NCBI RefSeq assembly: GCF_904846675.1
Contig: NZ_CAJHBT010000010.1
Coordinates: 1-64,000 of the forward strand
Direction: 5' to 3'
Length of the DNA stretch: 64,000 nucleotides
Source of the DNA: Psychrobacter urativorans
GTDB taxonomy: Bacteria; Pseudomonadota; Gammaproteobacteria; Pseudomonadales; Moraxellaceae
The notes beneath the pieces are model-generated. The model was not told where the DNA came from, ran no database searches, and saw only the letters and a list, made by a program, of their open reading frames with translations. Made by a program: the position numbers and the translations under genes. Numbering within the stretch: position 1 is the first letter of the stretch; each line of letters starts with the position of its first letter. Below are positions 7,072 to 9,977 of this stretch, piece after piece.

Positions 7072-7896
7072 TTAAGCACTTAAGCTATCTAAAGCTGCGC
7101 GTAGCTCATCCATTTTTATCATAATCTGTTGCTGAGCAGCAGTAACGGCGGCGCTATCATTGGCATCGATATCAGCAAAGTTCTGTACTAAAGCACTGCC
7201 AACAATAATACCATCGGCATGCGCACCAATCGCTTTAGCTGAAGCACCATCGCGAATACCAAAGCCCACGCATACTGGCAAATCAGTTTCCGCTTTAATC
7301 GCTTTTACATGCATCGCCACATCATCGGTATCCAATGTCGCTGAGCCCGTAACGCCTTTGAGCGATACATAGTAAATATAGCCACCGCAATGAGTCAATA
7401 CTTGCTGACGACGTTCCGCTAAGGTGGTCGGTGACAATAAGAAAATCTCATTCATTGCATGGTCGGTTAAATGCTGGGTAAAGCTACCCGCTTCTGCTGG
7501 CGGCAAATCAACCATCAATAAACCATCAACACCCGACTGCTCACATAACGCGACAAATTTATCATAGCCAATAATCTCAACAGGGTTCAAATAACCCATT
7601 AGAATAATTGGCGTTTGAGTGTCTGTCGTGCGGAATTCTTCAACCATTTTTAGCGCATCACGGGTACTGGTACCCGCTGCTAAAGCACGTTCGCCAGCCA
7701 ATGCTACCGTTGGGCCATCAGCCATGGGGTCTGAGAATGGCAAACCAACCTCAATCATATCTGCGCCGTGTTTGACTAAGTCATGTAGTAAGCCAACAAA
7801 GTTACTAGGATTAGGGTCACCTGCCATCACATAAGGAATTAGGGCTTTTTTGTTTTGTGATTTTAAAGTTTCGAAAGTGGTTTCAATTCGGGTCAT
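7072..7896 (-). CDS. trpA: Tryptophan synthase alpha chain
   Basis: 274 residues, the normal length. TrpA cleaves indole-3-glycerol phosphate to indole and glyceraldehyde-3-phosphate and passes the indole to TrpB. Motifs seen: ALIPYVMAGDPNP, MIEVGLPFSDPMADGPTVALAGERAL (catalytic Glu in EVGLPFSDP), GLLMVDLPPAEAG (catalytic Asp), FLLSPTT and the phosphate-binding CVGFGIRDGASAKAIGAHADGIIVGSALV. It is the last trp gene here. It is separated from trpB by an unrelated ORF and 38 bases, which is unusual for trpBA. Confidence 0.97.
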   Translation of the reverse strand: MTRIETTFETLKSQNKKALIPYVMAGDPNPSNFVGLLHDLVKHGADMIEVGLPFSDPMADGPTVALAGERALAAGTSTRDALKMVEEFRTTDTQTPIILMGYLNPVEIIGYDKFVALCEQSGVDGLLMVDLPPAEAGSFTQHLTDHAMNEIFLLSPTTLAERRQQVLTHCGGYIYYVSLKGVTGSATLDTDDVAMHVKAIKAETDLPVCVGFGIRDGASAKAIGAHADGIIVGSALVQNFADIDANDSAAVTAAQQQIMIKMDELRAALDSLSA

Positions 7897-7934
7897 AGTT
7901 ATCTCTTTAGTTATCTATCTCTTCAGATAAATTA

Positions 7935-8678
7935 TTATTCAAACTTTATATTAATAATAGTATTGCCGTCTTGACCTTTAACCAACCATGCTCCATTCAT
8001 AACTATTTCTAGTTCATTAAAACTCGATAGTACCTGTTCTTGTTTAACAGTATTACCTTTATAGACCGTTTTAATAACCTTATTAGCTATAGACAAGTAA
8101 GTCTTACAGATTAGTTTACTATGCTCTTCAAGAGTCAGCTTAAGGTCAATCTCGTTGCTTTCATTATTTTTATGATTAAAATATGTCAGCTTATAATCTT
8201 CAAACTGCACTCTAACAGGTACAAACATTTCTGTTTCTTCATTACTTTGGGAAATATAGTTAATACTATGAGCACCCAGTTTATGACGAGCTTGCGTTAT
8301 TGATAAATCGTTAAACTCTTGTTTTACTACTTTAGGGTTTGGACACTTAAACAATTTGAATATATGTAATATAGCTTGCTGCTGCTGATAAACTGCATTT
8401 AACACTCCATACAATCTCAGATACTTCTCACCCAAATCATTGTATTTAGTAGGACCTGATAAACCAAACTTTAGAAAGCTTTTCAAAGCCTCATTAGAAT
8501 CTTCTAAAATATCCTCAGAAGCAATGATTTCATTCCAATCATTCTTCGCATTCAACTTAAATTTTTGTTGTGCAAAGCCTAAGAAGTCAGCGGTTTCTTT
8601 AGAAAAAACCTGCTTCCTTGTAAACTCAATAAACATATCGTTTATTAAGTTTACTAAATCCACCATATCCGTCTTCAA
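7935..8678 (-). CDS. Unrecognised AT-rich protein inserted between trpB and trpA (HEPN-like motif)
   Basis: 247 residues, not recognised as a known family. It is largely helical by composition, rich in Asn, Lys and Ile, and visibly more AT-rich than trpA and trpB. R131-HKLGA-H137 fits the R-x4-6-H pattern of HEPN RNases, and a long helix (about 88-111) precedes it as expected; this is a motif-level inference only. The start is TTG at 8678 with AGGA seven bases upstream, just past the trpB stop; an in-frame ATG at 8666 is the alternative. It is co-oriented and 12 bases from trpB, so it should be co-transcribed. Context suggests horizontal insertion. Confidence 0.75.
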   Translation of the reverse strand: MKTDMVDLVNLINDMFIEFTRKQVFSKETADFLGFAQQKFKLNAKNDWNEIIASEDILEDSNEALKSFLKFGLSGPTKYNDLGEKYLRLYGVLNAVYQQQQAILHIFKLFKCPNPKVVKQEFNDLSITQARHKLGAHSINYISQSNEETEMFVPVRVQFEDYKLTYFNHKNNESNEIDLKLTLEEHSKLICKTYLSIANKVIKTVYKGNTVKQEQVLSSFNELEIVMNGAWLVKGQDGNTIINIKFE

Positions 8679-8690
8679 AAGAACATCCTT

Positions 8691-9977
8691 TTAAAACTCA
8701 AGGCCTTCCGCCTTCATCACAGAGTGCAAGTCTTTGTCACCGCGACCAGACATATTAACCACGATGGTTTGGTCAGGGGTCATAGTCTTCGCAAGCTTGA
8801 GCGCATACGCAACCGCATGAGCGGTTTCAAGCGCAGGAATAATACCTTCTTTACGCGTTGATTCATGGAAGCCTGCGAGCGCCTCTTTATCAGTACAACC
8901 GACATATTCAACACGCTTCATATCTTTTAAGAAACTGTGTTCAGGGCCAACACCTGGGTAATCAAGACCCGCTGAAATCGAATGAGTTTCTTGAATTTGA
9001 CCGTCATTATCTGCCATTAAATAAGTCCGGTTGCCATGTAGCACGCCAATACGACCAGCGGCAAGTGGTGCAGAATGGCGACCCGTCTCGATACCATCGC
9101 CAGTTGCTTCCACACCATACATTTTCACTTCAGTATCATTTAGGAAGTCAAAGAATAGACCAATGGCGTTTGAGCCACCACCAACACAAGCAACCAACGC
9201 ATCGGGTAATTTTCCGGTTCTCTCTAGATGTTGAATACGGGTTTCTTTACCAATAATCGCCTGAAAGTCACGTACTAGTAGCGGATAAGGATGCGGACCT
9301 GCTACGGTACCGATAATATAATAAGTGCTGTCAACGTTGGTGACCCAGTCGCGCATGGCTTCGTTCATCGCGTCTTTAAGCGTACGTGAGCCAGAAGTAA
9401 CTGGCACAACGGTTGCACCTAACAGACGCATACGATAAACGTTCATTTTTTGGCGCTCGACATCATCCGCACCCATATAAACAATACACTCTAGCCCTAA
9501 ACGAGCGGCAATAGTGGCCGTAGCAACACCGTGTTGCCCAGCGCCCGTTTCGGCAATAATACGTTTTTTACCACACATTTTAGCCAATAATGCCTGACCG
9601 ATGGTGTTATTTACTTTGTGTGCGCCAGTATGGTTTAAGTCTTCACGTTTAAAGTAGATTTGCGCCCCGCCAATCTCATCACTGAGACGCTTGGCATGAT
9701 AAAGCGGGGTTGGACGACCAACATAATTGACCAAATCAGTATGGTACTCTTCCCAGAATGCAGGATCTGCTTTTACTTTGGTATATAACGCCTCTAACTC
9801 CTCTAACGCTGCCATCAAAGTTTCGGAGACAAAGCGTCCACCGTGGACACCAAAATGACCACGGGCATCAGGGTACTGGTTAAAGTCCTGTACGTCTTTT
9901 GGATTGTTTAAGGTATTGATAGATTGTGCGCTAGCAGATGGGGCATCAGTTGCAGCATGGTTGTCGGCTTGACTCAT
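8691..9977 (-). CDS. trpB: Tryptophan synthase beta chain
   Basis: 428 residues. This PLP enzyme condenses indole and serine to tryptophan in the alpha2beta2 complex. Seen: [40 protein letters not shown] (the Lys of HTGAHK forms the Schiff base), [14 protein letters not shown], the phosphate-binding [10 protein letters not shown], and near the C-terminus NMSGRGDKD. About 30 polar N-terminal residues precede the conserved core ([11 protein letters not shown]). It is separated by 160 bases from trpF upstream and followed after 12 bases by the unrecognised ORF rather than by trpA. Confidence 0.98.

Follow-up and report, generated by a model that had tools for sequence, protein, structure and literature searches.

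A HEPN-like gene in a recurrent cargo slot between trpB and trpA of Psychrobacter

Two published ideas come closest to the locus described here, namely the core defence hotspot (PMC10250203) and the serial replacement of type VI secretion system (T6SS) effector modules in Vibrio cholerae (PMC5361080). As the available parts of these sources describe them, the Pseudomonas aeruginosa hotspots cDHS1 and cDHS2 (medians 26 kb and 6 kb) have fixed core flanks, variable content that includes conflict-type genes and no single mobile element, with a guanine-plus-cytosine (GC) content below that of the host in cDHS1; the T6SS modules are exchanged at a fixed chromosomal place where remnants of earlier occupants persist. 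We analyzed 64,000 nucleotides (nt) of Psychrobacter urativorans (contig NZ_CAJHBT010000010.1, positions 1 to 64,000; hereafter the window), in which a gene for a 247-residue HEPN-like protein lies between trpB and trpA, together with the same junction across the genus. The junction shares the traits named above. Unlike cDHS1/2, it holds one or a few genes, the longest of them trp-directed, between two genes of one pathway, and exchanges them among species. Unlike the T6SS modules as far as the source text covers them, its cargo comprises unrelated gene kinds without a conserved anchor module, and both of its borders are fixed. The elements of the locus in the window are the following:

7072..7896, minus strand: trpA, the downstream flank of the slot
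7897..7934, minus strand: 38-nt junction between cargo and trpA, with an AAGAGA Shine-Dalgarno-like sequence
7935..8678, minus strand: HEPN-like cargo gene, 247 residues, TTG start, between trpB and trpA
8679..8690, minus strand: 12-nt junction between trpB and cargo, with an AAGGA Shine-Dalgarno-like sequence abutting the trpB stop
8691..9977, minus strand: trpB, the upstream flank of the slot

The cargo open reading frame (ORF) comprises 247 codons, begins with TTG 12 nt past the TAA stop of trpB and ends 38 nt before trpA. Its GC content is 31.7%, versus 45–48% in trpA, trpB, trpF and accD and 42.7% in the window. A preliminary description of this locus had reported exactly such an AT-rich, TTG-initiated frame, with a composition unlike its neighbours, a Shine-Dalgarno sequence at the trpB end and no partner antitoxin, and all of this was confirmed. 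The two junctions are so short that there is no space for a partner gene, and no adjacent MNT antitoxin gene was found at the locus. The AAGAGA sequence upstream of trpA is also common in empty trpB–trpA slots.

Cargo recurs at the trpB–trpA junction across the genus, with many different kinds of occupant. Among 105 Psychrobacter genomes searched, trpA was found in 103, and after removal of three duplicate loci the gap was read in every one; for L057 and L082 the fetched DNA included only the end of trpB. A short spacer of 63–252 nt separates the two genes in 61 genomes, and an insert is present in 42. The HEPN-like gene occurs in 8 of the 105 genomes, in all eight cases between trpB and trpA. 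The preliminary description had called a single-gene cargo in the trp operon unusual and proposed comparing the spacing in other genomes; the cargo is indeed in the trp cluster, and this gene is indeed restricted, but with 42 of 103 slots occupied it is no one-off. We distinguished 13 intact content labels, made up of 11 gene or pair kinds. Besides the HEPN-like gene (8 of the 42 occupied genomes), recognised conflict-type content fills 12 slots: PIN_8 (3), HNH (2), NADAR (1), NADAR with HNH (1), NADAR with PIN (1), a PIN pair (1), a Fic/VbhA pair (1) and a SocA_Panacea pair (2). Unrecognised genes occupy 20, comprising a 250-residue type (10), a 236-residue type (7), a 325-residue type (2) and a 321-residue type (1), several of which look hydrophobic by eye. 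The remaining two hold decayed content, an HNH gene recognised by alignment in L121 and a PIN gene judged by eye in L138. These assignments rest on Pfam for 20 cargo proteins, which represent 14 of the occupied genomes; the others were assigned by similarity or by eye. Three of ten representative cargo proteins match PADLOC models (PtuB-like HNH, PDC-M42C and PDC-S04).

Constant core flanks with variable content, the mark of a core defence hotspot, are what we observed at this junction. Gaps of more than 500 nt were found in 40 of 103 trpB–trpA junctions, compared with 2 of 43 trpF–trpB and 0 of 27 trpA–accD junctions, where the control samples are subsets set by the flank length fetched, the trpF–trpB sample stems mostly from empty slots, and one further locus shows no visible trpF. 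A recombinase, as expected of a transposon or integron cassette, was not found among the 20 cargo proteins in Pfam, nor was a transposase, in a search that did not extend to attC sites or terminal repeats. Cargo-bearing gaps span about 0.64–1.64 kb, and all 40 slots of at least 640 nt have their longest ORF oriented like the trp genes. The pattern extends to the two genera nearest Psychrobacter by trpA, in which 4 of 6 and 3 of 5 trpA-bearing genomes have ORF-filled gaps above 500 nt in the trp direction; one further genome of these genera has a 4.9-kb gap that includes an opposite-strand ORF. An open-access literature search found no account of a trpB–trpA slot in Psychrobacter or Moraxellaceae.

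Some cargo has been transferred between species without its flanks. Between the window and genome G104, DNA identity is 97.5% in the slot versus 83.3% in trpB and 82.7% in trpA, and synonymous divergence (dS, calculated with our own Nei–Gojobori script) is 0.066 in the cargo versus 0.925 in trpA and 1.238 in trpB. Likewise, when G044 or G046 is compared with G052, cargo dS is 0.007 and flank dS 0.75–0.89 (0.88 and 0.75 for G044). Among the 28 carrier pairs, 26 have a lower dS in the cargo than in either flank, but the difference is strong in only a few. The two comparisons of G008 with G044 and G046 give a cargo dS of 0.444, above the flanks (0.22–0.38), which fits the replacement of one cargo variant by another. 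The low cargo dS relative to the flanks indicates that the HEPN-like gene moved between species into the same site, and the recent insertion proposed in the preliminary description gains support from the contrast between the window and G104. When 100 same-cargo pairs of all kinds were compared, cargo similarity exceeded that of both flanks by 5 points or more in 26, of which 16 come from the 236-residue type and are hence not independent. In the first 20 nt of flank, these 26 pairs show a mismatch of 0.096 in trpB and 0.058 in trpA, versus 0.125 and 0.088 in 150 control pairs. Most of the ten bins per side are slightly below control, as would be expected of pairs whose flanks are more similar; with mismatch this near control, little flank travels with the cargo, or the flanks were later reset. 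Two of five tested 236-residue cassettes carry a clear HNH-gene tail at their 3′ end (36/39 nt, score 33, shuffle maximum 14–15), and the other three show a weaker match (score 20–22 versus a shuffle maximum of 15–19). Such a tail behind some 236-residue cargo genes is a trace of serial replacement and the counterpart of the remnants at the T6SS loci.

If the slot differences were instead old and vertically inherited, with many losses, the high cargo identity would reflect conservation. Decayed remnants do exist, and change counts on a tree cannot tell gain from loss. On a rapidly built trpA tree of 822 columns, in which 31 of the 100 inner branches are weak, the 250-residue type requires 6 changes against a shuffled mean of 9.7, and emptiness 26 against 32.7; the pattern is therefore partly inherited. 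Moreover, in 21 of the 100 pairs (19 from the 250-residue type), cargo similarity falls 5 points or more below that of the flanks. The eight HEPN carriers, however, need eight changes on this tree, seven of them forced by starred branches and no fewer than with shuffled labels, and the dS contrasts given above run counter to conservation. We regard purely vertical descent as very improbable.

The 247-residue protein can be assigned, by sequence comparison, to an unnamed family. A search of 5.8 billion proteins found 119 homologues (E ≤ 0.01); searching with a profile gave 563 (E ≤ 1), the 120 best of which were listed. The preliminary description had pointed to an R-x5-H motif, R131-HKLGA-H137, which is present and well conserved. 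Both residues are invariant in a 77-row alignment (A1; the window protein with 76 of the 119 hits of the first search). In the later count over all 156 homologues retrieved, aligned to the window protein, R131 is kept in 155 and H137 in 154; the two rows lacking motif residues are a truncated one of 158 residues and one with an aberrant stretch at the motif. E84, Y86, R88, Y90 and G91 are invariant in 156 of 156, a conservation that may be overstated because the search relies on short exact words. We dropped the presence of the motif alone as evidence, since 400 of 2,000 shuffles of the same protein carry an Rx4-6H; it is the conservation that carries weight. Relatives in the genome collection are spread over Pseudomonadota, Bacteroidota, Desulfobacterota, Planctomycetota, Spirochaetota and others. 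In the other seven Psychrobacter carriers the TTG start is always kept, and six copies are uninterrupted (247–250 codons), the copy in G008 (locus L004) having a stop after 212 codons.

The protein is likely a HEPN-type RNase, because its predicted model has the helix order and motif positions of HEPN proteins. According to the available part of PMC3710099, these consist of four helices, Rx4-6H spans the end of core helix 3 and the beginning of the following loop, and many families have an acidic Ex3[KR] motif in helix 2. The AlphaFold model (predicted local distance difference test, pLDDT, 90.8) places core helices at residues 47–71, 82–109, 126–136 and 179–205, with R131 and H137 at the end of core helix 3 and the start of the next loop and E84xxxR88 in helix 2. 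Beyond this core lie a beta insert (152–178), N-terminal helices and a C-terminal part. The same source, as far as its text was available, ascribes to the Abi-type HEPN RNases AbiU2, AbiF/AbiD and AbiJ an Rx4-6H that closes the third core helix, with a polar residue after the R, an Ex3R in the preceding helix and an insert between that helix and the motif, all of which our protein resembles. Five of six AbiU2 proteins extracted also have R-[HNS]-x4-H, with five residues between R and H. Unlike the Abi-type proteins, ours has its beta insert after the motif, extra N-terminal helices and no operon partner. Compared with HepT/MntA, it shares the predicted HEPN core, and two structural searches each list a HEPN/MNT-type entry that scores no better than unrelated bundles; it differs in its length of 247 residues, in having no adjoining MNT gene and in its R-x5-H, most HepT-like proteins extracted having R-x4-H.

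Taken together, we consider it fairly probable that the gene product is a HEPN endoribonuclease which acts without a partner and, once triggered (most plausibly by phage, as in abortive infection), arrests or kills the cell, and that the gene sits in a trpB–trpA exchange slot. Its translation would directly follow that of trpB on the trp transcript, and the product may be held silent by its own extra parts (the beta insert, the N-terminal helices and the C-terminal part) until a trigger, most plausibly phage infection, releases it. The activated protein would then cut RNA as a HEPN dimer, and the infected cell would be arrested or killed. Through the slot itself, genes would pass among species singly or as small pairs, often of conflict type, either by homologous recombination in the flanks, which later within-species recombination would reset, or by recombination within short conserved sequences where trpB ends and where trpA begins (AAGAGA). 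The broader proposal, to which we give slightly less than an even chance, is that the junction in Psychrobacter and two neighbouring Moraxellaceae genera acts as an integrase-free exchange slot for small conflict cargo, and that the HEPN-like family is an undescribed stand-alone phage-defence RNase effector; in it, the cargo alone passes between species, cut within about 20 nt of the neighbours' coding sequences.

Several results weigh against this interpretation. The window protein has no match to any Pfam, PADLOC or NCBIfam model even at E ≤ 10, and no relative was found in the phage collection and viral contigs searched. Foldseek returned nothing at E ≤ 0.001 against the PDB and viral models, and the HEPN structural matches are no better than those of unrelated helical bundles. 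Profile alignments with hhalign against AbiU2, HepT and ApeA gave E-values of 0.17–0.22, near the reversed control, with a method that lacks power here, as known HEPN families also match one another poorly (E 0.03–0.95). Distant relatives of 268–323 residues in seven genomes (L251–L257) of another Moraxellaceae genus, presumably Acinetobacter, keep R-N-x4-H, but E84/R88 was not seen by eye. As for the slot, the 20 unrecognised occupants limit a defence reading of the whole, and with 21 pairs of opposite sign, 50 intermediate and 3 untestable, the transfer signal is not universal. Hidden Markov model searches of PDB sequences gave weak matches only (best E 0.018), away from the motif. The AbiU2 profile (PF18734) does not match the window protein, and the AbiU2, HepT-like and ApeA profiles have no match in the window's genome. 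Pfam and PADLOC matches to HEPN_DZIP3 and Csm6 were not used, as each concerned 1 of 77 members amid unrelated families of similar E-value. The HEPN RNase of the preliminary description thus stands on the predicted model and the conserved motif layout, while the fold and profile searches it had suggested stayed at background; neither a fold without a HEPN-like bundle, nor unconserved R131 and H137, nor presence in all Psychrobacter, each of which it had named as contrary evidence, was found.

Instead of acting as a toxin or defence nuclease, a HEPN-fold protein could also bind RNA or nucleotides and regulate the trp genes. The gene does lie inside trp with its start set against the trpB stop, and there are HEPN proteins that no longer have the motif or are encoded in metabolic operons, as in the MtlR family (PMC3710099, available part). 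Such a regulator would hardly be carried by only 8 of 105 genomes, keep R and H nearly invariant or share its slot with unrelated genes; furthermore, trpA, trpB and accD were not found in the available DNA of 40 non-Psychrobacter homologue loci (of 41; L045, a second copy on one plasmid, was left out). We therefore judge this role improbable. Among the same 40 loci, a shared neighbour or partner was sought, and only one Dadabacteria trio and four pairs share anything. Together with the scattered distribution, the decayed cargo and the truncated copy, this would suit a selfish or toxin-like gene maintained by easy transfer without a phage-defence benefit. We consider that unlikely, though less so than a regulator, since non-synonymous divergence (dN) is well below dS between diverged copies, which speaks for a retained function. 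Matches to defence models also occur among the homologue neighbours, for instance one protein to GajB and one to DpdF among the 136 scanned (of 139, three long proteins being left out of alignment A3); we give them little weight for want of a control count.

TrpB and TrpA form one enzyme complex, yet the junction of their genes in Psychrobacter resembles a plug-in socket for small toxin-like genes, whose swapping appears to proceed without mobility genes among the cargo proteins examined. With 20 of 42 occupied slots unrecognised, it offers a short, well-defined place to seek new defence or toxin genes, a simple system for studying cargo movement without integrases, and a way to ask how a biosynthetic cluster tolerates toxin-like passengers.

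At single loci, we observed trpF–trpB gaps of 612 and 582 nt (L138 and L147) and, in L121, a 368-nt trpB–trpA gap in which the decayed HNH gene is followed by a duplicated trpA start. Empty spacers, e.g. those of L079, L062 and L058, tend to form a strong hairpin (44 of 61 are more than 1.5 standard deviations more stable than 30 mononucleotide shuffles), without an Rfam match in six loci. An opposite-strand ORF of 84 codons was taken as chance, as at the length cut used it occurs only in L001 (duplicate L054) and L008. Outside Psychrobacter, the homologue matches in L024 (an Oxalobacteraceae metagenome-assembled genome) and L049 (an uncultured Lacinutrix) are not spanned by a single continuous ORF. 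A Tenacibaculum plasmid (L085, NZ_CP116302.1) carries a homologue with restriction S-subunit genes and a gene for a PDDEXK nuclease in its vicinity. An Acinetobacter plasmid from spoiled shower gel (L084, NZ_CP125670.1, 87672–104352) has two copies of a homologue; the one viewed adjoins a gene for enoyl-ACP reductase and lies between two transposase genes of ISAba33.
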